DNA of 64,000 bases from Candidatus Nitrosopumilus sp. Its GTDB lineage: Archaea; Thermoproteota; Nitrososphaeria; Nitrososphaerales; Nitrosopumilaceae. Each line of letters begins with the position of its first letter. The stretch's first letter is position 1. Positions 1 through 17,684 of the stretch are shown here, in pieces. The stretch covers positions 1-64,000 of the forward strand of contig JAJETY010000001.1 of the NCBI GenBank assembly GCA_021268355.1, written 5' to 3'. The notes under the pieces are model-generated. The model did no database searches, was not told the origin of the DNA, and saw nothing but the letters and a program-made list of their open reading frames with translations. The translations under genes were made by a program, and so were the position numbers.

Positions 1-161
1 TATGCACACATTTACTTTAATTTGAAGTTAAAATAATTGTTCATGAGTTTGCTTTTTGGAACTGATACTCAGCCATGAAATTTGAAAATGCGCCAAAAGA
101 TGATTTTCTAGGAATTCTATCACACAAATATCCTTATTAATTCCATAATTGTTTTTTGTTC

Positions 162-548
162 ATGGTTAAAACTCCTGCTGACAAATGGAAGACAACAATT
201 GCAAAATATAGAAAACAATGTCAGAAAATCATTGGCATCTCAAAAGGCATCAGATATGCAGGTGTAATCAACAATTATGGCAGAACCTTGACTGGAATTG
301 TTCAGCCAAATTTGAAACCATTACTAAAATCAGAGCAGGTTAAAAATGAATTTTTCATCATTTCCACATTAATGTCACTTAGAAAAGAAACTGTCAACAC
401 AGTTGGAAAACTAGAACACGTCATATTACAACATCAAAAAGTCACAATTGTTTTATTACAAAAAAATGATGTTACTTTTTACGTTTCAATTAATCGAAAA
501 GAAAAGAATTTAGAGAAAATAATTTCTCTAATTAAAAAAGAAATCTAA
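162..548 (+). CDS. Small conserved thaumarchaeal protein (DUF6659-like), paralogue of the gene at 46025-46417
   Basis: This 128-aa soluble protein has no signal peptide or membrane segment. Its centre, IRYAGVINNYGRTLTG followed by VKPLL-like residues, matches the same region of the gene at 46025-46417 (IRHVGVINQLGRLIAG..VKPLL), so the two are paralogues. The alternating strand/helix pattern resembles small profilin/roadblock-type domains, but that is only an impression. An ATG at 162 is preferred over an in-frame TTG two codons earlier. Its 3' end overlaps the convergent VOC gene by 4 bp. Function unknown; the DUF6659 assignment is from memory. Confidence 0.75.
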   Translation: MVKTPADKWKTTIAKYRKQCQKIIGISKGIRYAGVINNYGRTLTGIVQPNLKPLLKSEQVKNEFFIISTLMSLRKETVNTVGKLEHVILQHQKVTIVLLQKNDVTFYVSINRKEKNLEKIISLIKKEI

Positions 549-955
549 GCTGGAGTAAATCCAACATATCCACTAGTTTGTTCTGCTTTATCAGCAAAAC
601 TGGGCTCAAACAGAGAGATCAAGTAATCATCAGGATCTGAGATAACTGCATTTTTTCCTGCATCTTTTTCAACAATCTCCCTATGGATCTTTACGCCTTT
701 CTCTCTTAGTTCTTCGACTGCAGATTTTACATCTCCAACAATGAAACCAATAGTGATTCCACTTGCCAAAGCATCACCGTGTTGTTCTGTAAGTGAAGCA
801 GGATGTAAACTCAACAAAGCACCAGAAGTTCCCAAATCTACCCAAGTTCTTCTTTGGTTCTTAATTGGAAGCCCAATTAGTTCGTGATAGAATGCCAAGG
901 ATTTGTCAAGGTCTTTAACAGCCAAAATTACGTTACCAACTTTTTTGATATTCAC
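545..955 (-). CDS. VOC-superfamily (glyoxalase/bleomycin-resistance/dioxygenase-like) protein
   Basis: The 136-aa protein opens with KKVGNVILAVKDLDKSLAFYHELIGLP, cut here as the typical start of a vicinal-oxygen-chelate module, and ends with the GKNAVISDPDDYLISLFEP segment, where a metal-ligand acidic residue usually sits in the second beta-alpha-beta-beta-beta unit. Length fits one complete VOC domain pair. Such proteins bind a divalent metal and act as glyoxalases, dioxygenases or sequestering proteins; the substrate cannot be told from sequence. The start is GTG at 955. It converges with the gene at 162-548, sharing 4 bp at the 3' ends. Confidence 0.8.
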   Translation of the reverse strand: MNIKKVGNVILAVKDLDKSLAFYHELIGLPIKNQRRTWVDLGTSGALLSLHPASLTEQHGDALASGITIGFIVGDVKSAVEELREKGVKIHREIVEKDAGKNAVISDPDDYLISLFEPSFADKAEQTSGYVGFTPA

Positions 956-1024
956 AGATTATCTATCTCATAGTTGTTTAAATCAATTTTCATTGTACTT
1001 CAACAAAAAGAGGGGCTTCTCTTT

Positions 1025-1243
1025 TTATTGGACTTCAACCATGGTTTCTGTTCTGTCTACGCCACTTATTTTTTGAATTTGATTTGCCACTTCTTTGATT
1101 TGACTTATTTGCTCGACATCAATTATTGCTACAGCATCAAATTGGCCGCTTGTTGGAAAAGACTCAATTACTGAAGTGACCTTTCTCAATCTTGCGGCAA
1201 TCAATTTTTTAGGAGATTTGACCAAAATTATTGCTCTTACCAT
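1025..1243 (-). CDS. Stand-alone Lrp/AsnC effector-binding (RAM) domain protein
   Basis: The 72-aa product is a lone alpha-beta RAM domain (MVRAIILVKSPKKLIAARLR start, central GQFDAVAIIDVEQI, end of the form GVDRTETMVEV). This fold oligomerises and binds amino acids in Lrp/AsnC regulators, but here no helix-turn-helix precedes it. Its ATG overlaps the last 7 bases of the second RAM gene just upstream, so the two are translated from one message. It could bind an amino acid and modulate a full-length Lrp in trans, or act as a small-molecule sensor; this is inference. Confidence 0.85.
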   Translation of the reverse strand: MVRAIILVKSPKKLIAARLRKVTSVIESFPTSGQFDAVAIIDVEQISQIKEVANQIQKISGVDRTETMVEVQ

Positions 1244-1476
1244 CCCAGATTTACCTCCACTTCGATGAGTGTTTCAGTAGTTACAATGTCCTTAATTTTT
1301 TTAAAATCAATTACCATGTTGTTTATTTCGTCTATGGTTCCACGCAACATCACACTAACGTCTGCACGACCTGTTACCACCATCACCTGTTTGACAATTT
1401 TGCGCTTTTTTTTGAGAATTTCAACTACTGAATCTACCTTTCCAGGTTTTACAGTTACAAGACATAGTGCTCTCAT
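1237..1476 (-). CDS. Stand-alone Lrp/AsnC effector-binding (RAM) domain protein, first gene of the pair
   Basis: A 79-aa RAM-only protein (MRALCLVTVKPGKVDSVVEI, then VMVVTGRADVSVMLRG, ending TTETLIEVEVNLGW). The GRADVSV stretch is the usual strand-turn of the effector domain. There is no DNA-binding domain. It is upstream of and overlaps the second RAM gene (1025-1243), which differs clearly in sequence, so the two may form hetero-oligomers. ATG at 1476; an AT-rich TATA-like stretch lies immediately upstream. Confidence 0.85.
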   Translation of the reverse strand: MRALCLVTVKPGKVDSVVEILKKKRKIVKQVMVVTGRADVSVMLRGTIDEINNMVIDFKKIKDIVTTETLIEVEVNLGW

Positions 1477-1511
1477 TATACATTATAGGAGGTAGAATCG
1501 GATAAAGATTC

Positions 1512-1799
1512 CTAATCAAATGCTTCCTGAGACCTAGCTTCTTCTAGATATGCCCGTCTTTCTTCATTGACTTTTTCTTGGTCAATTTCAATATCGTCAT
1601 CCACAATAACTATACCCATGTCACCAGAAGGTTCTTCTTTCTTAGTTTTTGCTGATTTTGCCTTGGTATCTATTGATTTAGTAGTGGTCTTTGCCTTTGT
1701 AGTTTTTGCTTTGTTTGTAGTTTTCTTTGCAGGTTTTGCTTCTGTTTTCTTTAAGGTCTTTGCCTTTGTAGATTTTACTTTAGATTTTTTTTCAGCCAT
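1512..1799 (-). CDS. Lys/Ala/Thr-rich low-complexity protein with acidic C-terminal tail
   Basis: The first ~55 of 95 residues are nearly all Lys, Thr and Ala in AKTTK-type repeats, giving a strongly basic, disordered segment reminiscent of histone H1 tails. The last ~35 residues switch to an acidic, helix-prone tail (GIVIVDDDIEIDQEKVNEE). Such a bipartite basic/acidic layout suggests nucleic-acid or ribonucleoprotein association, but no named family is recognised. It lies between the RAM pair and the histidine kinase, on the same strand as both, with its own gap on each side. Confidence 0.6.
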   Translation of the reverse strand: MAEKKSKVKSTKAKTLKKTEAKPAKKTTNKAKTTKAKTTTKSIDTKAKSAKTKKEEPSGDMGIVIVDDDIEIDQEKVNEERRAYLEEARSQEAFD

Positions 1800-1883
1800 T
1801 ATGTCGAAGAAACAGAGTTGACCATATTATTAAATATTTTGTTAAATCCTTATTGAAAAAATCATTCAAGCCGTAAAAAATCA

Positions 1884-3488
1884 TTAAAGATAATCAGGTT
1901 TGCTCAAAGGAAACTCTAAAGTGAATTGAGATCCTTCTCCCAAAACAGATTTTTTCAGATATAGATCGCCATTCATGCTTCTTGCAAGTTTTCTAGATAT
2001 GTACAATCCAAGACCGGCTCCGCCAAAAAATCTGTTTAATGTATCTGATGATTTAGAGAACTTGTCAAATAGATCCTGTTGAAGTTGGGGTTCGATACCT
2101 TTTCCGTCATCAATTATGTTAAAGTATATTTTTGAATTATCCTTTGTGATCTCCATTATGATGGAGCCACCATTTTTTGTAAACTCTATTGCATTTGTAA
2201 ATAGATTTCCTAGAATTTGAACAAGCATTGGAACGTTGATTTTAAATGATTCTTTCTCAAGACTAGTTAAAATTTTGAAATCTCTGTTGTTGGTTTCAAA
2301 CATTTGTGAAAAAGACAATTTCACTAACTTTTTAATTTCTGAAACATCAATATCCTTTAATAAGACATTTTCTGTTTTTAGTGTTTCAATTTTGAATGCC
2401 TCCAAAATATTGTTAATTTGTAGTTTTAATTGGTCTGATGAATCAATGATGTTTTGTAGTAGTTGTTGCACATATGGATCCTTATCTTTATCCATAAGCA
2501 TCTCAGAATACCCCCTTATTGTAACAAGTGATGTCTTCATTGAATGGGATATGGCACTGTTAAACAATTCCTTATCTGCATGGGCTTCTCTTAATGCTTC
2601 AATCTGACCGTTCAACATTTTATTGAGATTTTCCAATTCATTTCTATCTTTAGAAATAGAGTTAGATACAATGCTGAGTTCTTCAAATGAAAATGATACA
2701 TTTTTTTCTTTATTTGAGGACACAGCCAAGAGTTTTTCAATATTATTTGAAAATTTTCTGGCAGTTAAATTCACAATTAATGGCGAAAAAGCAAGGGGTA
2801 TAGACAGAGCCGTGACAATCGATATATTTTTTTGTGAATAAATGTTTGAATCTTGATTTACAAACAATACATACGAAAATTCTTTAGAAAATTCATAATC
2901 CAAATCACTGTCAAAAATTATTTTTTGAACAAATTCTTTAGGCGTATGTCCAATTACGTTTCCACCAATTACCAAATTTGTATGTAAGTCATAATTTTTA
3001 TAGGATGTTGATTTACTGAATAAATTTTGTTTTAGTATCGCCACAGCCGTTATTTCTTTTCCATTTACAAATGCACTTTGAGAAATTGCAAGATAATCTT
3101 CATTTAAAACTTGTATCCCTTTTGTGAAATCTATTGTTCTAATTTCATTAGGAACATAGGGTGTTACAATTTTTACCATTTCACCGTCAACAAAAATAAA
3201 TAAATTGTCAATTTGATCCTCAGCTAGAAAAGCAAACAAACTATCATCAAAAAAATTATTTTGTTTGTCATCCTTAAGATAATTCAGAATTGTTTTTAAT
3301 TCAATTTCAATATCTATTATGTCATTATTTACATCATCAACATAAGAAAGTTTTATGGAATCCACTCTCTTATCCAATTCAATTTTTTCATTATATGATG
3401 AAAATTGTTCAGATATCAAAATGACTGAAACAGTCGAAATAGATATTGTCAGAAGTATAATTACTTGAAGAAAGAAATTGATTTTCAT
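1884..3488 (-). CDS. Membrane sensor histidine kinase with atypical H-box, paired with the solute-binding fusion protein
   Basis: The 534-aa protein has an N-terminal membrane helix (residues ~5-25), an extracytoplasmic segment (~26-220), a second helix (~222-245), a HAMP/coiled-coil-like linker, a HisKA dimerisation domain around His315 and a HATPase_c domain (N-box Asn near 432, G1 DDGKG near 459, G2 GGAGLGL near 489). The H-box reads SHSMKTS: the phosphoacceptor His is present, but the acidic residue that normally follows it is Ser. ATP-binding motifs look intact. The start overlaps the stop of the 601-aa fusion gene by 4 bp, so the binding protein and kinase are probably co-translated and cooperate in sensing. 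No receiver is encoded directly downstream; the nearest are at 5875 and 9579. Confidence 0.9.
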   Translation of the reverse strand: MKINFFLQVIILLTISISTVSVILISEQFSSYNEKIELDKRVDSIKLSYVDDVNNDIIDIEIELKTILNYLKDDKQNNFFDDSLFAFLAEDQIDNLFIFVDGEMVKIVTPYVPNEIRTIDFTKGIQVLNEDYLAISQSAFVNGKEITAVAILKQNLFSKSTSYKNYDLHTNLVIGGNVIGHTPKEFVQKIIFDSDLDYEFSKEFSYVLFVNQDSNIYSQKNISIVTALSIPLAFSPLIVNLTARKFSNNIEKLLAVSSNKEKNVSFSFEELSIVSNSISKDRNELENLNKMLNGQIEALREAHADKELFNSAISHSMKTSLVTIRGYSEMLMDKDKDPYVQQLLQNIIDSSDQLKLQINNILEAFKIETLKTENVLLKDIDVSEIKKLVKLSFSQMFETNNRDFKILTSLEKESFKINVPMLVQILGNLFTNAIEFTKNGGSIIMEITKDNSKIYFNIIDDGKGIEPQLQQDLFDKFSKSSDTLNRFFGGAGLGLYISRKLARSMNGDLYLKKSVLGEGSQFTLEFPLSKPDYL

Positions 3489-5290
3489 TTTAATCCACCA
3501 AATTCAAAACTGATCACTTCCAAAAATCCTGATTGGTTAATTTGGCACCAATAAGACTGTATTTTACAATCATCTTGTAGTAATTCCGTTGCAACTGAAA
3601 TGGATTTTTTTGCTTTTATCAAAGCATCAATCTGTTGGTCAGATGTGAAGATATCCACTGTGGTATAGAACTCATTTAATTCATCTTCACTTAACTCTGT
3701 GTTTTCTGCAATAATTTTCACTGCCCTAGCAGGGTTTTCATTTAAAAAATCTACTGCTTGGTTTAATGATCTTATTATTTGGGCAACTTGATACATATTA
3801 TTTTGAACAAAACTTCCATGGAAAATCAATCCGTCAATGATATGGTAATTTGACTGTGATGGTGTGTAAACTATTTGATGTCCTAAAGCCACCGATTCCT
3901 CAAGATTTGGAGTCCATGTATGTCCAATTAAAACTTCATCATTCTCTATCGCTTTAGGTACATCATGACTAGAGATGACAACAAGTTCTACATTTTGAAT
4001 TGGGACACCTATTGATTTGATGTAATCACGAACTAGAAATTCGGAAAAAGATTTGTAATTAACAACTCCAGCTTTGACTTTGCAATGATCAGATGTATTA
4101 ATTGCGCAATCTGTATTTCTTAATTTTTCTATAGATGCATTATTTTTAATTACAATTCCATCATTTTCCAACGATTCATCTGAAATCCAAACTACGTTCG
4201 AATGCATTCCAAGTCTCTCGAATTCTATAGTATCTGCAACTACAATCATCATCCCATCAACGTAATTATTCCAGTACTGATCCACTGAATCCCGATACCG
4301 CATTTCTTGAACCAACTCTACATCTACCCCATTTTTTTCAAAAAATCCTGCTTCTTGCGCAAGCAGTAGGATATAGTTACCTGGAAAATCAGAATATGTA
4401 ATTTTAACTGGAGTTTCATTTGGAGAAAATATGAAAAAAATGATTACTATGATAGATATTGCTGGAAGAAAAACTGTCCAGTCAGGAATTTTTTTGCTTA
4501 ATTTATTTTTTAAATAATATCCAATACCAAAACCAAAAGCGCTAACCAAAATTATAGCTGGAAAAATCAGCATTACTACGTACTGTTCTTTTTTGTATTC
4601 TGAAATATGTTTTTTAGTAAAGTCTTCTGAAAATTTAGTTGTAGTTGTTTTTGCATCAAGCAGAATTTTCTTTTTTCCATCTATCATTGCATAATCTGTA
4701 AACTGTTCTTCAAATCCGATTTCAATTCCGGTAGAAGATTCTACAAATGTTCTAGCAGAATAATCCTCAGTAACTGGAACATTAATTTCAGGATATAATT
4801 GAGAAACATCAAAAGATGTTTGGCCAAAATACTCGTAAATTGTTAATTCCCCTAATTGGAATTCCTGAATAAATTCATTCTTTAGAATATCTCCTCCAAC
4901 ATCATAAACTGACATTGATGTCTTTGGAGGATTTGGCGGGAAATTAAAATACCCATCCTTATCCACATATTTTTTAGAGGTTCTCTCAAATTTTTCATCA
5001 AGAGACAGATTCCAAACTACCTCGTGATTTTTCAAATCAATATATGTATACGTACTTTTTACTTCAAGGATTTCAGGACCACTATCAGTTAGTGTTCTTG
5101 ACCAAATTAGTGAAATAGGAAAAGGTTCACCCAAGTTTGAATCTAAATCATCTGCAGTACGCATTTCACCCACATTATAATTGGTATGGGTAATCAGGAA
5201 TTCCTCAAGAGATGTATCTGTGTTCCAATATGAAAAATGAAGCGATAAAATTAACACAGTTAATCCAATAATTGACAAATAAATTTTCAT
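3485..5290 (-). CDS. Membrane protein fusing a PorA/DUF3068-like domain to an NMT1/SsuA-type solute-binding domain
   Basis: The 601-aa protein starts with a membrane helix (~3-20). Residues ~25-235 form an extracytoplasmic beta-rich domain resembling the DUF3068/PorA family (KKYVDKDGYFNFPPNPPKT region, STGIEIGFEEQFTDY near the end). Two membrane helices (~238-258, ~272-289) follow, then a C-terminal periplasmic-binding-protein fold (~293-590) of the NMT1/SsuA kind: KITYSDFPGNYILLLAQEAG, FFEKNGVDVELV, a DGMMIVVADT loop. In a classical transporter such a domain would feed a permease; here none is nearby, and the next gene, overlapping by 4 bp, is a histidine kinase. I infer a ligand receptor presenting signal to the kinase. 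The ligand is unknown. The same DUF3068-like domain recurs in the kinase at 6325-7875. Confidence 0.8.
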   Translation of the reverse strand: MKIYLSIIGLTVLILSLHFSYWNTDTSLEEFLITHTNYNVGEMRTADDLDSNLGEPFPISLIWSRTLTDSGPEILEVKSTYTYIDLKNHEVVWNLSLDEKFERTSKKYVDKDGYFNFPPNPPKTSMSVYDVGGDILKNEFIQEFQLGELTIYEYFGQTSFDVSQLYPEINVPVTEDYSARTFVESSTGIEIGFEEQFTDYAMIDGKKKILLDAKTTTTKFSEDFTKKHISEYKKEQYVVMLIFPAIILVSAFGFGIGYYLKNKLSKKIPDWTVFLPAISIIVIIFFIFSPNETPVKITYSDFPGNYILLLAQEAGFFEKNGVDVELVQEMRYRDSVDQYWNNYVDGMMIVVADTIEFERLGMHSNVVWISDESLENDGIVIKNNASIEKLRNTDCAINTSDHCKVKAGVVNYKSFSEFLVRDYIKSIGVPIQNVELVVISSHDVPKAIENDEVLIGHTWTPNLEESVALGHQIVYTPSQSNYHIIDGLIFHGSFVQNNMYQVAQIIRSLNQAVDFLNENPARAVKIIAENTELSEDELNEFYTTVDIFTSDQQIDALIKAKKSISVATELLQDDCKIQSYWCQINQSGFLEVISFEFGGLK

Positions 5291-5375
5291 GTATTTGCCT
5301 TGATGATTTCAAATTTAATGGTATTGAGCCAGTTTTTTGCTTAACACTCTTCCATAATGGATGAAAATCAAGTAT

Positions 5376-5389
5376 TATATTATAAAATA
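5376..5389 (+). promoter_or_regulatory. TATA-like box for the ArsR-like regulator
   Basis: The AT-only run around TTATATTATAAAAT lies ~20-33 bases before the ATG at 5409 and in the divergent gap between the fusion gene (start 5290) and the regulator. The position fits an archaeal TATA box giving a leaderless or nearly leaderless message. Because the stretch is almost symmetric it could also serve the opposite direction. Confidence 0.4.
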
Positions 5390-5408
5390 GTAATTTCATA
5401 TCTTAATC

Positions 5409-5819
5409 ATGATTGATTGGGATTCAAAAAAAGAATCACTTCAGGAATTGGAGTTAATGAAAGCGATTGAATATGAAGTAAAGACTTCAAGTAAATCAGA
5501 TTCAAGCGGATGGGTTCACATCAAAGAAACTAAAAAGATTGGAGAAATTCTTTCAACCTTGGGCGACCCTTTGACAAGACAAATCCTAATCGCACTTAAT
5601 AAAAAACCACATACTGCACTTGACTTGATGGAAGAGATTCCTGATGCTCCAAAGACTTCACTTTACAGAAAAATGAAAGATTTGGAAGAAAAGGGAGTTA
5701 TCAAAGTTGATTCATTTGAGCAAAAAGAAAACAAAAAGGTGGCGGTCTACAAATCTACAATCATGGGAATTCAAATAAACATGAAAGATGAAATCGATCT
5801 CTTCATACACATAAAGTAA
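5409..5819 (+). CDS. ArsR-like winged-helix transcriptional regulator
   Basis: The 136-aa protein has a winged helix in the middle: KIGEILSTLGDPLTRQILIAL, then HTALDLMEEI, recognition helix APKTSLYRKMKDLEEKGVI and a wing with YKSTIMGIQI. It resembles ArsR/HTH_20 archaeal regulators without a visible metal-binding Cys pair. It is divergent from the solute-binding/kinase genes and upstream of a receiver-kinase-kinase-receiver run, so it may control either set. ATG at 5409 with a TATA-like box just upstream. Confidence 0.85.
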   Translation: MIDWDSKKESLQELELMKAIEYEVKTSSKSDSSGWVHIKETKKIGEILSTLGDPLTRQILIALNKKPHTALDLMEEIPDAPKTSLYRKMKDLEEKGVIKVDSFEQKENKKVAVYKSTIMGIQINMKDEIDLFIHIK

Positions 5820-5874
5820 TCCCAAAAATGGGAATTAGGAATTGTTTATAATAGAAGATTGTTTGGATCGTTGT

Positions 5875-6231
5875 ATGAGTAAGAATATCTTACTAGTTGA
5901 TGACAATCAAAAGATTAGGGAGTTGTTTACTAGTTACTTGGAACTCAAGGACTTTAATGTTGATTCTCTGGATTCAGGAGTCGAGGTTATGAATAAGATT
6001 GAGTCAAATGACTATGATATTGTATTACTAGACATGGCAATGCCTCAAGTAAGTGGATTTGAGGTTTTAGTAAAAATGAACGAAAAACAATTTGACATGA
6101 ATAAAGTCATTGTATTAACTGCAGCAGATCTGAGCGATGAAGAAAAAGAGAAGATAAAATCATTTCAGATCAGGGCATTTCTAGAAAAACCAGCTGAACT
6201 AAGTACAATTATGGGACTAATTGGTAGCTAG
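5875..6231 (+). CDS. CheY-like single-domain response regulator
   Basis: A 118-aa receiver only: acidic pair in LLVDDNQ (Asp9, Asp10), phospho-acceptor Asp53 in VLLDMAMP, Thr in VLTAA and Lys in FLEKPAE complete the switch set. There is no output domain, so it must act through a partner, as is common in archaeal two-component systems. I chose the ATG at 5875; an upstream TTG at 5842 would add 11 residues unlike a receiver start. It precedes two histidine kinases on the same strand and is a clear homologue of the receiver at 9579-9932. Confidence 0.9.
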   Translation: MSKNILLVDDNQKIRELFTSYLELKDFNVDSLDSGVEVMNKIESNDYDIVLLDMAMPQVSGFEVLVKMNEKQFDMNKVIVLTAADLSDEEKEKIKSFQIRAFLEKPAELSTIMGLIGS

Positions 6232-6324
6232 TTAATAGAAATATTTATCATTAATCTTCAAATTTTCATTTTAATAATTAGTTTCTAAAAAAGAGTTTAT
6301 TAAAAAACATCCACTCTCTTAAAC

Positions 6325-7875
6325 ATGATTCAAAATTATGGGAAAATTATTGCAATCATTCTAGTAATTTCTGCTGGAGTAAATCTTTACTGGTTTTCAG
6401 TCATTATTCCAGAACAATTTTCACTTCCAACTAATTACTCCAGAAGCACAGAATTCTTTGGGAAAGACAAGATTGTTGGCGAATTTGGAGGCTCTTTTAA
6501 TGAAGAAACAAAACACCAGCGGAATTCCCTTGAAAGAGTAGTCAAACTAGACGGAGATATTCTAAAAATTGAGGCAGAAATTGTTTCAAAACACGTAATT
6601 TCAGATAAAGTTGTCTTTAATGCATTTGATAGCTATGATGTAGATCGAATTACTAAAAAACACGTTGATTCGGATTTGTACTATGCATTTCCATCAAATG
6701 TTGAAAAGACAAGTTATGATTTTCTGCATCCTGTAATTCACCGACCAACTACTATGCAATATGTTTCAACTCAAATAATTGATGACCTTGAGGTGTATTT
6801 TTTCCAATGTGCGCCATCAATTAACGATAACTCTGCCGCTTTTCCGCAATTTGAAGGCAAAACTATCAAAGTAGAGTATTCGTGTAATTTGTGGATAGAG
6901 CCCATTACTGGCAAGTTAATCAAAATGGAAATAGGATGGGATAATTATTTTGTGGAAGATGGTAAAAAAGTTCATCCAACACAGATTGGTGAGAGTGGAG
7001 CATCGGATCTATTTGTGTTTGATGCAGTGAAATTAGCAAAATATCAGTTGGAGATTCTGAACATCTATGAAAGAATTTTGCCTATGGTGTTTTGGATAAT
7101 TACGGGTTTGATGATATTAATTGTAATTTTTACACAAAGATTGAACGTTGCAACTAGTAAGGGGATTCAATCTCAACTTGAAATACAAAAACAAACTAAC
7201 GAATTTACTAATATGATTTCCCATGAACTAAAGACGCCTCTGACTCCAATTAGAGGTTACTGTGAAATGCTACGAGATCCTAAATTACTTGGTCCGTTAT
7301 CAGAAAAACAAGATAAAGCAGTTCAGAATATTGAGAAAGAGAGTTCAAATCTACTCAGTCTCATTGAAAAGATTCTGCTAGTTAGGAAGATGGAAAATGA
7401 ACTCTTTGAAATAATTCCTTCAGAAATATATCTAGACGATATGGTTACTGAGTTTATCCAAAAATTATCAAAAGAGATTTCAGATAAAGGAATCGAACTA
7501 AAAATTGATGTCAAAGATCATGAAAAGATAACTGTAGATTCAAGATTAATGTCACAAGTCTTTTCAAATATTATCCTAAATGCGATTGATTTTGTGCCCA
7601 AAAAAAATGGTAAGATCCAAGTTTCAGCAAAATTGGATGCAGATAATGTCACATTTAGAATATCCAACAACGGACCAGCAATTCCACAAAATGAGTCTGA
7701 TAACCTGTTCAAAAAATTCTATCAGTTGGATACATCGCTTACTAGGCCTCACGAAGGTTCAGGATTGGGGTTGGCAGTTTGTAAAGGAATAATAGAATCA
7801 CATGGTGGAAAAATATGGATTGAAAGCAATTCTGAAATGACATCATTTATTTTCAGAATACCTCGGAGAAAATAG
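6325..7875 (+). CDS. Sensor histidine kinase with PorA/DUF3068-like extracytoplasmic domain
   Basis: The 516-aa protein has an N-terminal helix (~8-26), an extracytoplasmic beta-rich domain (~27-245), a second helix (~252-270), HisKA with a normal H-box (ISHELKTPLTPIRGY, His300) and HATPase_c (N-box FSNIILNAIDF, G2 EGSGLGLAVCKG). The sensor region shares the order KKHVDSDLYYAFPSN..KTS, then EPITGKLIKMEIGW and EDGKKV, with residues ~105-215 of the solute-binding fusion at 3485-5290, so the two are homologous DUF3068-like modules used in different contexts. It is followed after 2 bp by a CHASE kinase, indicating one transcript. Confidence 0.9.
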   Translation: MIQNYGKIIAIILVISAGVNLYWFSVIIPEQFSLPTNYSRSTEFFGKDKIVGEFGGSFNEETKHQRNSLERVVKLDGDILKIEAEIVSKHVISDKVVFNAFDSYDVDRITKKHVDSDLYYAFPSNVEKTSYDFLHPVIHRPTTMQYVSTQIIDDLEVYFFQCAPSINDNSAAFPQFEGKTIKVEYSCNLWIEPITGKLIKMEIGWDNYFVEDGKKVHPTQIGESGASDLFVFDAVKLAKYQLEILNIYERILPMVFWIITGLMILIVIFTQRLNVATSKGIQSQLEIQKQTNEFTNMISHELKTPLTPIRGYCEMLRDPKLLGPLSEKQDKAVQNIEKESSNLLSLIEKILLVRKMENELFEIIPSEIYLDDMVTEFIQKLSKEISDKGIELKIDVKDHEKITVDSRLMSQVFSNIILNAIDFVPKKNGKIQVSAKLDADNVTFRISNNGPAIPQNESDNLFKKFYQLDTSLTRPHEGSGLGLAVCKGIIESHGGKIWIESNSEMTSFIFRIPRRK

Positions 7876-7877
7876 TT

Positions 7878-9560
7878 TTGCAGAGATCCACATCAAGTTC
7901 GCTGATTATTTTTTGTATCGGATTGATTGCTACAGCAATAGTTTGGTTTGCATTTTTTGAATTAATAGAATCTACTCAAATAAAATCATTTCAAGAGGAG
8001 AGTCATTCATTGATACAAAAAGTTGAATCAAGATTACAGGTGTATAATGGAATCCTTTTAGGCTCAGTTGGATTGTTTGCCGCTTCCGATGAGGTAACTC
8101 CTGAAGAATGGAGTACTTTTATCAAATCCACCAAACTCATTGAAAGCTATCCTGGAATACAGGGAGTAGGATTCAACAAATATCTTCAAAATGATTTTGA
8201 AAAACCAGAACTTGTAAAAAAAATGAATGAGTATGGGTACACAGATTTTGAAATAAAACCTGTGGGTTCAAGAGAAATGTATTTTCCGGTGATCTACATT
8301 TTTCCTGAAAATGAGGCAAACAAAAGGGCAATTGGATATGATATATACTCGGAATCTGTTCGTTCAAAAGCTGTAGATAACGCTATCACTCTTAATGAAA
8401 TGTCAATTACAGGAAAGATTGTTCTTGTTCAAGAAGGAGAGGGGGAAGCACAAAATGGATTCCTTATGTTGATTCCTGTTTATGAAAGCAATTTAGAACA
8501 AAAAATGAGTGGACTTATTTCAGCTGTTTTTAGGGTAAATGATTTAATTTTTGAAATTCTAGATGAAGACACTTTTCAAAAAAACAATGTCCGAATCTAT
8601 GAAACAGTAGAGTCTCAAGAAAATCAGTTATTTGATTCTAATAAATTCAATGAAATTTCTAATTTAAATGAGAACTTTTCATACATTGAGACAATTAGTT
8701 TTGGAAATATGGATTGGGTATTTGTTATAGATTCCCCCAAACCAGAACTTACCGATTCAGAAAAAAATCTGCTAATTGCAATTCCCATAGTGGGCGTGTC
8801 AATTAGCATTATGGGTTTTGTTTTATTTTTGAATTTTAACAAAACTGTGGTTGCAAAACAAATTCAAAAACGAAGAGATGAATTTGACTCAATGATCTCC
8901 CACGAATTGAAGACACCTCTTGTTCCAATTATGGGATATTGTGATATGTTGCTATATCCAGAATATCTAGGTAAATTAAATGATGGACAACTTCATGCTG
9001 TAAAAAAAATTGTGACAAATGTGGATCACATGAAAAGACTCATTCAAAATATTTTGGATAGTCAAAAGATGGATTTGAACCAGTTAAAATTAGAATACTC
9101 GACTGTCAATCTCAAAGAATTTATCTCTGAAATTGTTTTTTCACACGCCCCAATTACATCTGAAAAGGGAATTTCTTTGTCTATGAATAATATTCCTAAT
9201 ATTCAAGTCACACTAGATGCGTCTAGAATTAAAGAGGTAATTACCAACATCATTCTAAACGCCATAGATTTTCTTCCCGAAAAAAATGGAAAAATATCAA
9301 TTACTGCAAGAGAATTAGAAGATAATCTGAGAATATCAATTTCAAATAACGGTTCACAAATTCCACATGAACATCTGAATCTAATTTTTGATAAATTTCA
9401 TCAAGTAGAAACAGGGGTGACACGAAGACATGGAGGTTCTGGATTAGGATTGGCAGTTTGCAAGGGAATAATTCAACTTCACGGAGGTAAAATTTGGGTA
9501 GAAAGTGATAAAAATATCACAAGTTTCATTTTTGAAATTAATTTAAAACCTAATAAATGA
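7878..9560 (+). CDS. CHASE-domain sensor histidine kinase
   Basis: The 560-aa protein has a membrane helix (~8-28), a CHASE sensor (~60-240; typical YPGIQGVGFNKYL, YFPVIYIFPENEANKRAIGYD split here by position), a second helix (~298-320), HisKA with ISHELKTPLVPIMGY (His342) and HATPase_c ending GGSGLGLAVCKGIIQ. CHASE domains sense extracellular small molecules such as cytokinin-like or hydrophobic compounds; the ligand is not predictable. The start is a TTG two bases after the preceding stop, and no ATG is available before the helix. The kinase core is close to that of 6325-7875, suggesting tandem duplication with sensor replacement. Confidence 0.9.
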   Translation: MQRSTSSSLIIFCIGLIATAIVWFAFFELIESTQIKSFQEESHSLIQKVESRLQVYNGILLGSVGLFAASDEVTPEEWSTFIKSTKLIESYPGIQGVGFNKYLQNDFEKPELVKKMNEYGYTDFEIKPVGSREMYFPVIYIFPENEANKRAIGYDIYSESVRSKAVDNAITLNEMSITGKIVLVQEGEGEAQNGFLMLIPVYESNLEQKMSGLISAVFRVNDLIFEILDEDTFQKNNVRIYETVESQENQLFDSNKFNEISNLNENFSYIETISFGNMDWVFVIDSPKPELTDSEKNLLIAIPIVGVSISIMGFVLFLNFNKTVVAKQIQKRRDEFDSMISHELKTPLVPIMGYCDMLLYPEYLGKLNDGQLHAVKKIVTNVDHMKRLIQNILDSQKMDLNQLKLEYSTVNLKEFISEIVFSHAPITSEKGISLSMNNIPNIQVTLDASRIKEVITNIILNAIDFLPEKNGKISITARELEDNLRISISNNGSQIPHEHLNLIFDKFHQVETGVTRRHGGSGLGLAVCKGIIQLHGGKIWVESDKNITSFIFEINLKPNK

Positions 9561-9578
9561 GAAATTGAAAAAAATTAC

Positions 9579-9932
9579 ATGAAAGTCTTACTTGTCGATG
9601 ATTCTCTAGAAGTTACTGAAATGCTTACAGAGTTTTTTTCATTAAAAGGAGATCAAGTTGATCGTGCCCATGATGGAGAAGAAGCAGTCAATAAAATTTT
9701 GGAAACTAGATTTGATGTAATTATTTTAGATCTTGCAATGCCTAAAACCAGTGGATTTGAGGTATTGGAATTACTAAAAAATAAAAATAAACTTGAACCT
9801 GAGAAAATTTTTGTTTTGACAGCAATGAATATCACAAATAATGAAAGAGAAAAAATTGAGAAATATGGTGTTCATTTGCTACTAAAACCCATAAGCATAC
9901 ATGATTTGTATGCCTCAATAGAATCAAAATAG
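9579..9932 (+). CDS. CheY-like single-domain response regulator
   Basis: A 117-aa lone receiver: LLVDDSLE acidic pair, phospho-acceptor Asp51 in IILDLAMP, Thr in VLTAM, Lys in LLLKPIS. It follows the CHASE kinase by 18 bp on the same strand, making it the likely partner of one or both kinases. It shares the DLAMP..SGFEVL pattern with the receiver at 5875-6231. Output must be by protein interaction. Confidence 0.9.
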   Translation: MKVLLVDDSLEVTEMLTEFFSLKGDQVDRAHDGEEAVNKILETRFDVIILDLAMPKTSGFEVLELLKNKNKLEPEKIFVLTAMNITNNEREKIEKYGVHLLLKPISIHDLYASIESK

Positions 9933-9960
9933 TTTTAGAAAATTTCTAATTAATTTATGG

Positions 9961-9974
9961 TGCCGAGGGCAGGA
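9961..9974. repeat. 14-bp near-copy of the tRNA-Phe 3' end (possible attachment-site remnant)
   Basis: TGCCGAGGGCAGGA at 9961-9974 matches TGCCGAGGGCGGGA at 15419-15432, the 3' terminus of the tRNA-Phe gene, at 13 of 14 positions and in the same orientation. This GC-rich word stands out in an AT-rich intergenic region. The two copies bracket one very large surface-protein gene. No integrase is present, so an attachment site is only a suggestion. Confidence 0.4.
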
Positions 9975-10020
9975 GTACTAAAATAAAATTAACCCCTTTC
10001 TAACTAACTAACTATACTTT

Positions 10021-10047
10021 ATCATACATATCATACATATCATACAT
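10021..10047. repeat. Three perfect tandem copies of a 9-bp unit
   Basis: ATCATACAT is repeated three times without mismatch, directly after a short (CTAA)n-like run. It lies in the gap between the receiver gene and the 3' end of the 1725-aa gene. No hairpin or gene is evident here; slippage repeat is the simplest reading. Confidence 0.8.
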
Positions 10048-10139
10048 TTCACGAATAAAATTGAGTGTGTATCTTACAGTAGACCCTACATGATCATATA
10101 TTTTCTGATTCTTCAATGAAATCAGTTATCTTTTGATTG

Positions 10140-13100
10140 TTAGTTAAATGAAAACGAATTAGATCCTGCTTTCTTTTCTTTAATAACTAACTGTGTTTTT
10201 TGTAACTCAATTGTTGCCTTTTGTTTGATTAGTTGTTCAAATTCTCTATTTCGTTCATACTTATCTTCTAGCATTTTTGTATAATATTTTTGGGTTTTAT
10301 CATCAGCAGTTTCACGCATTTTTTGTATGGTCTCATGTGATTGTTTTTGTGCTAATTCCAATTTCCAGACTGATTCAGCCATGGCTTTTGCAATAATTTC
10401 ATCTTGTCTTTGTAATAGTGATTCTTTTAGTAAAATGGCTTTATTTCTTGCAATCTCTAATGCAATTTTTTTCTCTTCAATTAATTTGATATATTCGGAT
10501 ATCTTTTCTTCACTTTCATATTCTTTAGAAATTTCTTTTTTGTCAATTTCAGATGAATTTAGTATGGATTCTTTTTGAGTTATTTTCGATTGGAACACAT
10601 CTTCAATGTAAAGATACGACACATTTCTTTTTGAATCCCATAATCTAAATAATAAATTAGATTCAATATCTGATTTTGTAAAATATACATCATACTCTAC
10701 TACTGATTTATTCCCTTCTGTGTATGATTTTACAAAAGCGATATCGATTACTTTTTGTGGGTCTTTGATTTCAATTTGCTTTCCTTTCTCATACGTAACA
10801 CTGGTCTCAGTAAGATCATTTTTGATTTGTGGTGAATCAGTAAAGAATAGTGATGCATGTTCTAGAAATTCTGGTCCCAGTGAAATGTATGATTTTAGTA
10901 TGATTGAAACTGGAGTATCTTTTTGAATGTTGATTGGTGCAATATTTTTAATTTCATCATATCTGTATGATTTACCATTTATGACTAGTGGGGATTCATT
11001 AGTAAATGATGTCATAAAAGAAGGTGCGCATTTTGAACCACAGTTGCTACCACCACCAGATGCTACTCCAGAACTTCCTGCTGAAAATGTCGATGCAGTC
11101 TTTGTCCAAATTAACAAATCAGCGCCACTATCAATCTTGCATGCAGTTGCTCCAACATTTGTAGGATTTGTCAAATCATCACAAGTAGTAGATACCAAAA
11201 TCTCTGTCCCATCAAACTCTGTAATTAACCCATCAGAGCCAGCAACATCAGGAAGTACAATCTTTACTGGGGCACTAAAAGTCAACCTTCCATTTGGGTT
11301 TCCAAATTCCACTGAAACAGACGGAGTAAAAATTGAACTAGTGATGGTCTTTGGTGTAGGTACAGTAAGTTCACCAGTCCATGTTCCAGCAGCTGATGAT
11401 ATTTGTACACTAGAAGGTAAAACCACGTCTGCTACAGGTGAGTCAAATGTTACTTGAGAGGTAAGTGCCACCACTCCCTGATCATCTGCATAGTTTGAAA
11501 AATCCAGTTTGACTTGAGGTGATACCTCAAATGTTTCAGATGTTGTTAATGGTGGAATTAAATTAAAACCCGTATTGTCAGCAACTACAAAGTTACTTGC
11601 TCCACCCGTTTTTGCAAGATTGATGCTTGAACTGTTATCCACAACAACTGTTTGTGTAACTACTTTGGTATTTCCAGAATTATCAGTTACTGTGAAATAG
11701 ACTTTGTATTTTCCTCTGGTACTGGAATCTACTGCAGACGAATCAACGATAACCCTTGAAGTGATATCTCCATCTTCTACATCCTTTGCAGTATATGCAA
11801 ATTTAGGAATAGGTGCATTTAGATCAATTCTAATTAGTGTATCTCCGTCTAGTTTTAATGTAGGGGTATTACCTGCAGAAAATATTATTTTTTCAGTGAT
11901 GGTTGTGGAGAGTTGGCTTCCAGAAGTTTCAGTTAATTTGTATTCTGTATAGTAGATTTTATTTGATGAAGGAATTGTTCCAGTTATAGATACATCACTT
12001 TCATAAAGATATTGTCCAGTGAAACTATTTTGATAATACATTTTTGTGGCATGAGATGTAGTGTAAGTTTGTTCCTCTACCACATTTGCTACTGTTCCAT
12101 AATTGTAAGTATCAACACCTTTTACCAATGTTGTTGTAAAATCTGCAGAATTTCCATTGACTGTAAATGATGGATGAGTTGTATCTGATATTGGTGCAAC
12201 TAGTTGTTTTGATACAACATTGGAATCAGTCCCCGATATACCTTGAGAATTTTTTGCCTTTACTTTGAAATAATGTGTATTTGAATAAGATAATCCAGAA
12301 ATTACTTCACTAGTTTGAGTATCTATGGCATCGGTATATTGCGTATATGTGGCACCATCAGTTGATTGATAAATCTCATAGTCTGTAATGCTTGCACCAC
12401 CATCGTATGGAGCACTCCAAGATAAGGTAAATTCTTGAGAATTAGTGTGAGTCAATGTCAGATTTGTGATTCCACTGGGTGTAGCAAGTGCACTAGTTGT
12501 AACTCCCGTACTGGTTGCAGATACTGTTCCTACTCCTAATCCGTTAATTGCAGAGGTTCTGAACTGATAAGTCGTATTTGGAGTCAGACCAGTCGCACTG
12601 TATGTGGTCGCAGGTGATCCAGTGTTTGCAGTTACCTGACTCCATGTTCCACCTGAATTCGTACTCTGTTCAATTTTGTATCCTGTTGGAGACATGCCAT
12701 ATGTGGGGGCATTCCATGAGAGATTGATTTTACTAGTTGGAATGGTAGAGTCCTTTGCAGCAACAAGTGACAGAGTCTGACTAGGTATTTGATTTTGAGT
12801 ATTTACTTCCCAAAATGACATAGTAGATCTTTGGCAGCTTGCACAGGCATTCCAGCCAGTATTACTTGTAACTGCCAAATACTGATTGTCAAATATGCTA
12901 AAAGGATTCACAGTAAAGATAGAACCAAAATAATTTCGATTCCAATCATATTGATTACTGCCACCCACTCCAGGAGCTTGGCAGCCAAAGTGTTTTGGGT
13001 TTGCAGGATCATTTAGATTGAATTGAGTAAAACCATTACCTCCATGTGCAGTTACTCCTCCAAAATTTGTTCCGTTTTGGAGTTGGTATGTAAAAACATC

Positions 13101-15317
13101 TCTAATCTTGGCATGAGAAGAACAAAGACCACCAGTATATTTCGAATAAACAACAGTAGGAGTTGAAGGATCATTTAGATTAATGATGTTGATTATGCCA
13201 TCTCTAGAACCCGCAGCCACTTTCTGAGTTTCGGCAGTAATAATATAGTTAGTTCCATTTAACAATTGAAAAGTATCAATTATGATAGAATCAGAACCAT
13301 AGGTCTGAACACATGTATAGCATATATCAAAACTAGGATCGGATACCTTACTTTTGTAAGATACCAATTTGATATTTGAAAGTTCATTCAAGTTTAGTAT
13401 ACTTAATGACTTATCATGGATATTTGGGACGGCAGCAAAATTTGTTCCATTATTTAGTTTGAAAATTGAAATATTACTTTTGAAATTTGCAGGCAATACT
13501 GATAGCGAATTAAGAACTTGAGATGAAGTAGATTTAATGTTTGAAGGATCATTTAGATTGTACAGTACAATAGGTCCTGCAACATTAGTTCCTGAAACAG
13601 TTATTTGTTGAGCCGCACCAATTAGAAAATTTGTCCCATTTGAATGCTGAAAGGTAGCCAAATTTGATTTTGAAATCCATGCAGGGGTCGTTGATGCAGT
13701 TAATTGTTTTGCAATAGTGAGATTTGATGGGTCAGTAGCATTGACAACTAAAAGAGAGGTTAAAGAATTTCTCATCAATAAATAAGGAAGATTGTTAATT
13801 TCAAGGGCTTTGACCTCAATCATGTTTGCAATTTTATTCTGAAAAATGGTAGCCCAACCATTTGCAAATCTTGTTACTTGAGATGGATTTGACAAACTAT
13901 CAATATCATAAATTGTAAATCCATCATTTACCTGATAATCTTCAAATGTTCCAAACATGGTAATCAGATATCTTGAGCCATTAGTAGTGTAAAATACATC
14001 AGAATCAGTTTGGTATGATATGCCATTATTATCTACTGAAATTTTAGAAAACTGATTAATTGAATCAGGAGTCTGACCACCATTCACAGCAGGCAAAGTT
14101 CCAATCTCTACTATCTGGACTCCATCATCATCAGAAGAAGTAATTATTGCATATTTTTTGTCAGAATCTGTAAAAAAGTCAAAACCAAAAGCACCATTTA
14201 ATTCGGTAAATCCATTTGTGTCATCAGTTTGAGAGTTTGTAGAATATAGAAGATTCAACTCATTGAGATTAATTATTTCAAATCCGTCTTCAGTATTGCT
14301 TGTAGATAATGCAAATAAACTAGAGCCAACAGTAAATGTTCCAACCTTTCCACTACCGCCTAAAATAGTGCTAGAACTATCTGAAATATTGTCAACTAAA
14401 ACAGGGTTTGTCAAATTACTCAGGTCATAAATTGCAAATTGCTTTCCCGTCTCGCTCCTAATTGCAGCATAATTTTTTGAATATTTTGTAAAGACATCAA
14501 CTGAAGTGGGACTGATTATAGAGTCAGACGAGAGATCGTACTCTTTTATCATAGTTACATTTGAAGGGTCTGTCAGATTGATTATTGTAAAATGACTCTC
14601 ATTTTTTGATGTAATGATACCATATGGATTCCCAGAAACTGAAAAAGTTGATGAATCACTAGGTCCATCAAGTTTTGTAAATCCGTTTATGCCATCTGTT
14701 TCAGAATCAACTCCAACTATTGTTGTAGGATCATTCATGTTGACTATCTGAAATCCCTTATCATCATATGATGTAACAAGTGAATAGTTTGTTCCATTTG
14801 ATAAAGTGAATACGTTTACAGAGTTTGCCCCATCTAGTTCCAAAAATCCGTTAAACCCATCAAACTCTGCATCAAGAGGTACAGGTTTTAGAGGATTTGT
14901 CATGTTTAAGATTTGAATTCCATCATCAATTCCTGAAACAACTACTCCGTATCTCTTGGCTCCAATTGAAAATGATTTCACATCTGCTGCACCATCAAGT
15001 GCAGTGTATCCTGAGATACCATCAGTCTTTGAAGCAACAGCTACAATGTTTGTTGGATTATTCAGATTCATTAACTGAATTCCATCATCATCATATGATG
15101 CAACTATTGCAAAGTTTGTTCCATTTGCAAGCTGAAATACGGAGACTGCTTTTGCCCCATCTAGTTCCAAAAATCCGTTAACCCCATCAGACTCTGCATC
15201 ACTTGAAGTTGCTCCATATGGGGTTGCTCCAAAAGCATGTCCTCCAGTCAAAATCATACATACAGAGAAAATAAAAAATAGCAAAAATACAGTATTTTCA
15301 TTATCGGTCAATAGCAA
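10140..15317 (-). CDS. Giant secreted repeat protein: beta-propeller-like repeats, two FN3 domains, Ig-like domain, coiled-coil tail
   Basis: The 1725-aa protein has a signal-like hydrophobic N-terminus (~8-30). Residues ~40-890 hold many repeats of the form DGxNGFxxLDGA..VxxFxxxNGTxFAI..DDDGIQ, LVIVD/beta-propeller-like. Two fibronectin type III domains follow (~895-1070; INLSWNAPTYG, FTLSWSAPYDG), then an Ig-like/DUF5011 module (KDVEDGDITSRV..VTDNSGNT), a domain ending LLIWTKTASTFSAGSSG, a CGSKC pair and a Lys/Glu/Gln-rich coiled coil in the last ~200 residues. No C-terminal membrane anchor is seen. It is probably cell-surface or secreted and adhesive. The start is TTG at 15317; another TTG lies two codons on. 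It sits alone between tRNA-Phe and a copy of that tRNA's 3' end. Confidence 0.85.
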   Translation of the reverse strand: MLLTDNENTVFLLFFIFSVCMILTGGHAFGATPYGATSSDAESDGVNGFLELDGAKAVSVFQLANGTNFAIVASYDDDGIQLMNLNNPTNIVAVASKTDGISGYTALDGAADVKSFSIGAKRYGVVVSGIDDGIQILNMTNPLKPVPLDAEFDGFNGFLELDGANSVNVFTLSNGTNYSLVTSYDDKGFQIVNMNDPTTIVGVDSETDGINGFTKLDGPSDSSTFSVSGNPYGIITSKNESHFTIINLTDPSNVTMIKEYDLSSDSIISPTSVDVFTKYSKNYAAIRSETGKQFAIYDLSNLTNPVLVDNISDSSSTILGGSGKVGTFTVGSSLFALSTSNTEDGFEIINLNELNLLYSTNSQTDDTNGFTELNGAFGFDFFTDSDKKYAIITSSDDDGVQIVEIGTLPAVNGGQTPDSINQFSKISVDNNGISYQTDSDVFYTTNGSRYLITMFGTFEDYQVNDGFTIYDIDSLSNPSQVTRFANGWATIFQNKIANMIEVKALEINNLPYLLMRNSLTSLLVVNATDPSNLTIAKQLTASTTPAWISKSNLATFQHSNGTNFLIGAAQQITVSGTNVAGPIVLYNLNDPSNIKSTSSQVLNSLSVLPANFKSNISIFKLNNGTNFAAVPNIHDKSLSILNLNELSNIKLVSYKSKVSDPSFDICYTCVQTYGSDSIIIDTFQLLNGTNYIITAETQKVAAGSRDGIINIINLNDPSTPTVVYSKYTGGLCSSHAKIRDVFTYQLQNGTNFGGVTAHGGNGFTQFNLNDPANPKHFGCQAPGVGGSNQYDWNRNYFGSIFTVNPFSIFDNQYLAVTSNTGWNACASCQRSTMSFWEVNTQNQIPSQTLSLVAAKDSTIPTSKINLSWNAPTYGMSPTGYKIEQSTNSGGTWSQVTANTGSPATTYSATGLTPNTTYQFRTSAINGLGVGTVSATSTGVTTSALATPSGITNLTLTHTNSQEFTLSWSAPYDGGASITDYEIYQSTDGATYTQYTDAIDTQTSEVISGLSYSNTHYFKVKAKNSQGISGTDSNVVSKQLVAPISDTTHPSFTVNGNSADFTTTLVKGVDTYNYGTVANVVEEQTYTTSHATKMYYQNSFTGQYLYESDVSITGTIPSSNKIYYTEYKLTETSGSQLSTTITEKIIFSAGNTPTLKLDGDTLIRIDLNAPIPKFAYTAKDVEDGDITSRVIVDSSAVDSSTRGKYKVYFTVTDNSGNTKVVTQTVVVDNSSSINLAKTGGASNFVVADNTGFNLIPPLTTSETFEVSPQVKLDFSNYADDQGVVALTSQVTFDSPVADVVLPSSVQISSAAGTWTGELTVPTPKTITSSIFTPSVSVEFGNPNGRLTFSAPVKIVLPDVAGSDGLITEFDGTEILVSTTCDDLTNPTNVGATACKIDSGADLLIWTKTASTFSAGSSGVASGGGSNCGSKCAPSFMTSFTNESPLVINGKSYRYDEIKNIAPINIQKDTPVSIILKSYISLGPEFLEHASLFFTDSPQIKNDLTETSVTYEKGKQIEIKDPQKVIDIAFVKSYTEGNKSVVEYDVYFTKSDIESNLLFRLWDSKRNVSYLYIEDVFQSKITQKESILNSSEIDKKEISKEYESEEKISEYIKLIEEKKIALEIARNKAILLKESLLQRQDEIIAKAMAESVWKLELAQKQSHETIQKMRETADDKTQKYYTKMLEDKYERNREFEQLIKQKATIELQKTQLVIKEKKAGSNSFSFN

Positions 15318-15418
15318 TTCCTAAAACGCATAATACTAAGAATGATTCCGTTTCTCAATATTTTTTCAAAAAACTCATAGAATTTAATCATCACTGGTAC
15401 TTTAGTCAAAAAGGTGTA

Positions 15419-15492
15419 TGCCGAGGGCGGGATTTGAACGCGCGACAGCCCGGTCTTCAGCCGAGTGCTCTCCCAGGCTGAGCTACCTCGGC
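15419..15492 (-). tRNA. tRNA-Phe (GAA)
   Basis: The minus strand folds as a 74-nt cloverleaf: acceptor GCCGAGG/CCTCGGC, D-arm GCTC/GAGC, anticodon stem CTCGG/CCGGG with loop CTGAAGA (anticodon GAA), T-loop TTCAAAT and discriminator A. There is no intron and no encoded CCA. The T-stem reads GCGCG against CCCGC, leaving a C-C opposition at 52-62 where G-C is normal. A TATA-like AATTAAAG (plus-strand) lies 26-33 bp upstream, and a run of five T follows the 3' end. Confidence 0.93.
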
Positions 15493-15534
15493 ACTCAAAA
15501 AATGTCAATAGTTGAGGAATTAAAGTGTGTCTTT

Positions 15535-16071: not shown

Positions 16072-16151
16072 AAAATTATTGGACGTGATTCAATTATTAT
16101 GTTGTTCGAAATACTCAAAACTCTTTAGGAGATGACACATACCCAAAATTA

Positions 16152-16685: not shown

Positions 16686-16909
16686 TGTCTGAATCTGAGA
16701 AAGATGAATTAATTGATGCTCAAAAGCAGGTTATAGGAATACTGTTTGAAGTAATTAAAAGATTACAGGCCAATAGTGACTTGGATGAAGAGTATTTTGA
16801 GATAGTTACAAAAAAAGAAAGTAATGAAAGTAGATTAAATGAAATTCTGGTTCAAAGAAAAGAAAATTCTGAAATTGTTGGTAGACTCTTAGAACAACTA
16901 CAGGTTTAG
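16685..16909 (+). CDS. Small coiled-coil hypothetical protein
   Basis: A 74-aa Glu/Lys/Leu-rich, largely helical protein (ELIDAQKQVIGILFEVIKRL start). No named family is recognised. Translationally coupled to the HD nucleotidase upstream by a TAATG overlap, so it may be an accessory of that enzyme. Its last 4 bases overlap the convergent gene at 16906. Confidence 0.65.
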   Translation: MSESEKDELIDAQKQVIGILFEVIKRLQANSDLDEEYFEIVTKKESNESRLNEILVQRKENSEIVGRLLEQLQV

Positions 16910-17205: not shown

Positions 17206-17282
17206 GTTTTTTTTATTGTCGTATTGTATAACAATCTTTTGAGGTAATACTGTTTTTATAACAATCAGATATTTTGCCAAGT

Positions 17283-17630: not shown

Positions 17631-17684
17631 CCTAGCCTCAAATAAAACGTAAAGCTTTAGTTATGATTGTGTTGAGATAATTAA

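Follow-up and report, generated by a model that had tools for sequence, protein, structure and literature searches.

In the bacterial systems XylFII/LytS, TorT/TorS and LuxP/LuxQ, a binding protein is described as holding the kinase both with and without ligand (PMC6321045), and many kinases regulated by binding proteins are encoded beside the gene for the binding protein (PMC11113362). Binding-protein-driven chemoreceptors have been described in haloarchaea (Kokoeva 2002, as cited in PMC11113362 and PMC9602780), and the main text of a census of archaeal two-component systems contains no instance of the terms NMT1, PorA or substrate-binding (PMC5847659). What ammonia-oxidizing archaea sense, and how, is almost unknown. 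The window analyzed here, the first 64,000 nucleotides of contig JAJETY010000001.1 (assembly GCA_021268355.1) of a Candidatus Nitrosopumilus sp. whose genome (G000) is 1.34 Mb in size and 98% complete, contains an overlapping gene pair encoding FUS, a fusion of a PorA/LmcA-like domain with an NMT1-type binding domain, and HK, a histidine kinase. Our preferred reading, with a probability of about 0.75, is a two-protein receptor in which the NMT1 domain of FUS binds the ligand and switches HK next to it. The observed basis is the gene pair, its domains, the conserved pairing, the absence of a recognized transporter partner, and an ancestry shared with kinase-linked NMT1 proteins.

Linkage of the NMT1 domain to histidine kinases

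Assignment of the C-terminal part of FUS to the NMT1/NMT1_2 superfamily is secure: PF13379 (E=2e-9, 38.1 bits, Pfam cut-off 24.7) and PF09084 (E=2.5e-7, 31.3 bits, Pfam cut-off 20.5) both match above their curated cut-offs, and the model of residues 290-570 is bilobal, with block means of the predicted local distance difference test (pLDDT) mostly 86-96 and a dip to ~61 near residues 390-400. The best VIA-align match of the FUS model is CmpA (Z 25.9, root mean square deviation 3.8, 300 residues aligned), and the matches listed are solved NMT1-type or related binding-fold chains. The high-ranking matches bind solutes as varied as bicarbonate, nitrate, sulfonates, 2-aminoethylphosphonate/taurine, pyrimidines and thiamin, and so point to no single ligand for FUS. 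A G-H pair that is invariant across 19 aligned relatives is kept in FUS, as is the T-W found after it in many of these. Two other readings were rejected: a THI5-like enzyme, which shares the fold, whereas FUS is predicted to be outside and membrane-anchored; and a plasmid origin, as the 19 plasmid records that match FUS do so in the NMT1 part alone, at <60% identity, with none covering 80% of the query.

Searching 400 genomes of the class with a profile of 12 NMT1-half proteins gave scores in two bands. Gene context was counted for all 27 rows above 100 bits (the close relatives, window included) and for 21 of the lower rows, chiefly those ranking highest, leaving out the other lower rows and the 75.9-bit second piece of a G323 gene. 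In 22 of the 27 close relatives the next gene downstream, on the same strand, encodes a kinase, with gaps of -4 to 52 bases, and ABC (ATP-binding cassette) permease or ATPase genes are found within four open reading frames (ORFs) in 0 of 27; absence here means that none was recognized, because detection relied on BLAST against a single ATPase and a single permease. Among the lower-scoring proteins, ABC genes accompany 16 of 21 and a kinase comes next in one (G269). The pairing exceeds chance, since it recurs in distant relatives (Fisher P for close versus lower-scoring rows 6e-8 for kinase-next and 9e-9 for ABC genes, both optimistic because the rows come from related genomes).

In the window, comparison of the ORFs of positions 1-20000 with the same ATPase and permease recognized no ABC gene within four ORFs of FUS, and Pfam recognized none among the seven proteins of 1884-9932. 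The nearest ABC operon found, ~25 kb away on the reverse strand (29291-32003), is complete and of PhnD type, with an ATPase, a permease and its own binding protein (PF12974, E=1e-42). The claim in the initial annotation that no permease or ATPase lies nearby therefore holds, and the arrangement that it had named as contrary evidence, relatives beside ABC genes instead of a kinase, was not found among the close relatives. No permease or ATPase genes of the kind that would mark an ABC subunit were recognized next to FUS or its close relatives; what the family shows is a conserved linkage of binding protein and kinase, in the 22 of 27 relatives, in synteny, and in movement of the pair as a unit.

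Full-length FUS occurs in two of 250 genomes of the family, that of the window and G104, and the nearest full-length match in a named genome is Nitrosopumilus sp. GoM_MAG4 (L164, the same record as G104). The gap between the two genes is also -4 in G104, so the one further full-length fusion found keeps the overlap. A scan of the genome contigs with FUS alone returned no relative.

The scan of named genomes kept 80 loci, many of them records of the numbered genomes, so that the counts overlap. Nine loci are bacterial, assigned to Nitrospirae (2), Nitrospinia, Omnitrophota, Riflebacteria, Magnetococcales, Thiotrichaceae and Pseudomonadales, with one unassigned, and in 9 of 9 the NMT1 gene is followed on its own strand by a gene for a kinase or a dCache-HAMP sensor; at the Thiotrichaceae locus this gene comes after two NMT1 copies and a 755-base gap, and the downstream ORF of the Omnitrophota locus ends at the contig end before any kinase domain. 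The dCache_1 domain is detected at E<0.001 in 8 of 9 bacterial clade loci, mostly under Pfam's own cut-off. Single bacterial placements could be binning errors, because most are metagenome bins. A tree was built of 62 NMT1 domains, namely the BLAST-recognized ORFs of the 80 loci (at least 60 bits, 200-420 amino acids) plus those of the window and the genome's own ABC protein, with the orthologue L164 trimmed to the NMT1 domain and with a kinase label that accepts a kinase on either side or strand. FUS and its orthologue (100/100) fall within a 27-row clade (99/98) that includes bacteria and holds 24 kinase-linked, 3 other and 0 ABC-linked rows. The branches are long and the deeper order is poorly supported; the simplest reading would be that one receptor lineage has moved between bacteria and thaumarchaea.

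Several relatives depart from the common arrangement. The low-scoring NMT1 protein of G269, from the same class but another family and order, precedes a kinase and two receivers (L106, 2060-4368, reverse strand), a pairing that is perhaps independent. In G117 the pair is broken, its NMT1 and kinase ORFs being split by stops (L037, 9168-11649). Tandem duplicates of the NMT1 receptor protein occur in a thaumarchaeon (L035, 7115-9115) and in the Thiotrichaceae bin (L139, 5923-8029). Matrixin-type metallopeptidase genes lie beside NMT1-kinase pairs in G098 (L034, 5509-6672, reverse strand) and G131 (L040, 12482-13501, forward strand), and it is possible that their products release or cleave the sensor or its ligand.

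Architecture of FUS and HK

The features of the locus are collected in Table 1. As initially annotated, FUS combines PorA-like and NMT1 domains and its gene overlaps that of HK by 4 bp, both ORFs lying as described; its hydrophobic segments number three, not the two first reported. These segments and the positive-inside rule suggest the order anchor, outside domain, membrane hairpin, outside domain, with a loop of ~14 residues between the second and third segments that contains several lysines and is predicted to be cytoplasmic. As this loop is the whole of the predicted cytoplasmic part, a signal would have to exit FUS via a partner. The insertion that carries Cys395 and Cys403 has both cysteines at the same positions in the G104 orthologue and is absent from the aligned single-domain relatives.

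PF11271 matches FUS of the window at 14.3 bits, under the cut-off of 29.5 and weak by itself, and matches the G104 orthologue at 34.2 bits, over it. The FUS model matches LmcA, a crystal structure of the PorA family, with Foldseek E values of 2e-9 to 3e-9, and the PorA half of FUS is 29-34% identical to the sensor half of PorA kinases of ~500 amino acids; a profile of 11 such PorA domains also has LmcA as its top PDB match, at only E=0.021. VIA-align skipped the PorA part, so its fold assignment rests on the Foldseek matches to LmcA, for which the aligned range is not given, and on the PorA profile. FUS looks like the sensor half of a PorA kinase that has exchanged its kinase part for a membrane helix plus an NMT1 domain. 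Of the 250 family genomes, 52 have a PF11271 match above the cut-off, mostly in open frames of ~480-640 amino acids and nearly always in frames long enough for a kinase, and the PorA/LmcA-like domain is thereby placed in archaeal sensors, against a statement in PMC9678360 that DUF3068 is exclusive to actinobacteria.

HK consists of a first membrane segment (residues 7-25), an outside region of ~195 residues (~26-220), a second membrane segment (221-239), and HisKA (E=1e-12) and HATPase_c (E=8e-24) domains. Its HisKA profile match and its N and G boxes are in order, but its H-box is not canonical: in HK and its orthologue the histidine is kept and serine replaces both the adjacent acidic residue and the proline at +5, which are present in the remaining 17 of 19 aligned kinases. 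The pattern H[ED]..[TN]P appears in six of the seven other HisKA loci of the same genome, the seventh (L219, with an in-frame stop) having none. In CpxA, the corresponding glutamate is described as the general base and the proline as the helix-disrupting point of a bending movement (PMC3904827). Specialization is more likely than decay to account for the change, because it is common to two genomes at ~41% identity. A full-length relative of the outside region of HK was found solely in G104 among the 250 genomes, ten further matches being to a piece of ~75 residues; with no recognized relative of this domain beyond G104, the fusion and the unusual kinase go together.

Table 1. Positions in the window of the FUS/HK pair, its segments and the adjoining sensory genes
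Feature	Coordinates	Strand	Evidence
HK, partner histidine kinase, 534 amino acids	3488..1884	-	ORF, Pfam, hydropathy
HATPase_c of HK, N and G boxes intact	1902..2228	-	Pfam, alignment
H-box of HK, residues 314-321	2526..2549	-	alignment of 19 kinases
ATGA overlap, FUS stop/HK start	3485..3488	-	sequence
FUS, PorA-like/NMT1 fusion, 601 amino acids	5290..3485	-	ORF, Pfam, structure model
FUS residues 290-601, NMT1-type bilobal binding domain, predicted outside	3488..4423	-	Pfam, model, structure matches
Cys395 and Cys403 of FUS, within an insertion	4082..4108	-	alignment
FUS residues 271-289, third membrane segment	4424..4480	-	hydropathy
FUS residues 238-256, second membrane segment	4523..4579	-	hydropathy
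FUS residues 39-217, PorA/LmcA-like beta domain, predicted outside	4640..5176	-	Pfam, model, Foldseek, profile
FUS residues 1-19, N-terminal membrane segment	5234..5290	-	hydropathy; model helix 2-22
HTH, helix-turn-helix protein (HTH_20/HxlR-like), divergent	5409..5819	+	Pfam, synteny
REC1, stand-alone receiver domain	5842..6231	+	Pfam, synteny
PorA-domain histidine kinase, same sensory island	6325..7875	+	Pfam, synteny
CHASE-domain histidine kinase, same sensory island	7878..9560	+	Pfam, synteny
REC2, stand-alone receiver domain	9579..9932	+	Pfam, synteny

The proposed receptor, its neighbors and the alternatives

In the proposed mechanism, FUS and HK would form one transmembrane receptor, with the NMT1 domain, on the outer side of the membrane, binding a small solute; closure of the domain would alter how it contacts HK, at the extracytoplasmic domain and/or the membrane helices, and so shift the kinase/phosphatase balance of HK. 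HK would then act on a stand-alone receiver, most simply REC1, and the likely output would be HTH, the module partner of REC1. The PorA/LmcA-like barrel, a relative of the sensor half of PorA kinases, may add another extracytoplasmic module that serves as a second input or a docking surface. Stand-alone receivers are given as ~75% of thaumarchaeal response regulators in the census cited above (PMC5847659). That FUS is a binding protein turned receptor, as originally suggested, is well supported by gene context and phylogeny; topology, ligand binding, contact, signal direction, receiver and output are predictions made from sequence and models.

The surrounding genes bear on the pair as a unit. 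G104 has the order HTH, REC1, FUS, HK, PorA kinase, CHASE kinase, REC2, all in one direction; G105, in the same place and with the same flanking genes, has only the PorA kinase, CHASE kinase and REC2; and the window has all of the island genes, with FUS-HK inverted and placed outside HTH. Identity among the three is mostly 84-98% in flanking proteins (a few are lower) and 41-72% in sensory proteins. From this comparison, HTH, REC1, FUS and HK are present or absent together in three genomes, and FUS-HK travels as one block. HTH has relatives at five scanned loci (the window, L032, L034, L036 and L039), all with high-scoring pairs. At the right edge of the island lies a gene for a 1725-amino-acid protein with fn3 and Ig-like domains (10140-15317, reverse strand), absent from the otherwise collinear G104 and G105.

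Several points weigh against the proposed receptor. In five of the 27 close relatives the gene immediately downstream is not a same-strand kinase, namely in the copies of G363, G302 and G299 and in two tandem copies of G221, where the nearest following kinase gene has the opposite orientation. Kinase activity of HK is uncertain because its H-box is without the acidic general base and the proline. The docking partner known from relatives, dCache, is not shown for FUS/HK: in the outside region of HK, Pfam gives no dCache match and hhalign a probability of 8.7%, over the linker only, and the model of this region is poor (pLDDT 44.6), with nothing at E <=0.001 in Foldseek (LuxQ chains at E 0.5-0.9 were not used). 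Four binding-protein-dependent permeases are recognized in the genome; those of the NMT1-type importer on contig C67 and of the window come with their own binding protein, a point in favor of the receptor, but the other two, together on contig C38, are untyped.

Most NMT1 proteins are binding subunits of ABC importers, and the NCBIfam matches of FUS are to transport families, though far under cut-off (SsuA_fam, 56 versus 163.5 bits), so FUS might serve an importer encoded elsewhere, its kinase neighbor being incidental or regulating that uptake. We regard this as very unlikely: ABC genes were recognized within four ORFs of none of the close relatives, the C67 and PhnD-type importers each have their own binding protein, and a PorA fusion with a membrane hairpin would be unusual for a transport subunit. 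The H-box of HK, off consensus at two functional residues, and the broken pair of G117 could also be taken to mean that the pair is a decaying or non-signaling remnant, with HK catalytically dead and FUS left over, but in two genomes at ~41% identity neither ORF is disrupted, the H-box carries the same change and the N and G boxes are kept, and to this explanation we give the least credence.

The PorA domain raises two further alternatives. It is the sensor half of ~500-amino-acid kinases in this family, and an intact PorA kinase lies next door (at 6325), so the barrel could be the true sensor and the NMT1 domain a passive docking arm now devoid of ligand; the NMT1 domain is, however, the sole part common to all kinase-linked relatives, and FUS retains the invariant G-H pair and the T-W, which makes this improbable. 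LmcA, a beta-barrel containing cavities, is suspected of binding lipid (PMC8972800). A two-ligand co-receptor, in which the NMT1 domain would read a dissolved nutrient and the LmcA-like barrel a lipid or hydrophobic molecule of the envelope, while HK, without catalytic base and hinge, would serve as a phosphatase, or switch the neighboring PorA and CHASE kinases, rather than act as an ordinary autokinase, is a speculative possibility to which we attach modest weight at most. We prefer the receptor in which the NMT1 domain binds the ligand and HK is switched.

Comparison with known systems

XylFII/LytS of Clostridium beijerinckii, TorT/TorS and LuxP/LuxQ, all bacterial, resemble the proposed FUS/HK system in that an outside binding protein regulates a histidine kinase. 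XylFII, TorT and LuxP belong to binding-protein families different from that of FUS, and we know of no NMT1 domain, PorA/LmcA-like domain or hairpin between two outside domains in these systems. BasB/BasT and CosB/CosT of Halobacterium salinarum are reportedly archaeal cases of a binding protein serving a receptor, as proposed for FUS; BasT and CosT are said to be chemoreceptors, not histidine kinases, and BasB and CosB to belong to other binding-protein families.

The simpler NMT1 and dCache kinase pairs of thaumarchaea and bacteria share with FUS/HK the NMT1 clade, the gene order and the overlap or short gap. Unlike FUS, their NMT1 proteins lack a PorA domain and are anchored once, at the N terminus, and unlike HK, their kinases have dCache or 4HB-like outside domains, mostly a HAMP domain, and a standard H-box. 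The C-terminal regulatory domains of CmpC/NrtC (PDB 9uai, 8wm7) are also NMT1-type domains in a regulatory role but, going by the entry titles and the reported topology, sit in an ABC ATPase subunit, unlike a membrane receptor with a kinase. LmcA/PgfA of mycobacteria, whose beta-barrel PorA/DUF3068 domain is the best PDB match to the PorA side of FUS, has neither kinase nor NMT1 domain and is assigned to cell-envelope lipid trafficking or lipoglycan synthesis (PMC8972800, PMC9678360). NitT/TauT binding proteins beside kinases have been noted in Beggiatoaceae, where co-transferred genes and a transport role were suggested, not a receptor clade (PMC5108060).

A literature search whose coverage left out most subscription journals returned no paper describing archaeal NMT1-kinase pairs; as far as that search shows, FUS/HK would, if the proposal is true, be the first binding-protein-driven histidine kinase described in archaea, and the pair hints at how ammonia-oxidizing archaea sense their surroundings. 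The anchored, kinase-linked NMT1 clade of thaumarchaea and several bacterial phyla also offers a ready set of outside ligand-binding domains for ligand screens. The initial annotation had called the architecture different from known archaeal sensors, and this is borne out for the PorA-NMT1 fusion, given its rarity in the family and the silence of the census main text, but not for the principle, as bacterial binding-protein-driven kinases and haloarchaeal chemoreceptors are known and simpler NMT1-kinase pairs occur in many thaumarchaea and some bacteria. The principle is thus already known; the novelty lies in the clade of kinase-linked NMT1 proteins and how far it is spread, in the fusion of PorA with NMT1 and in the changed H-box.

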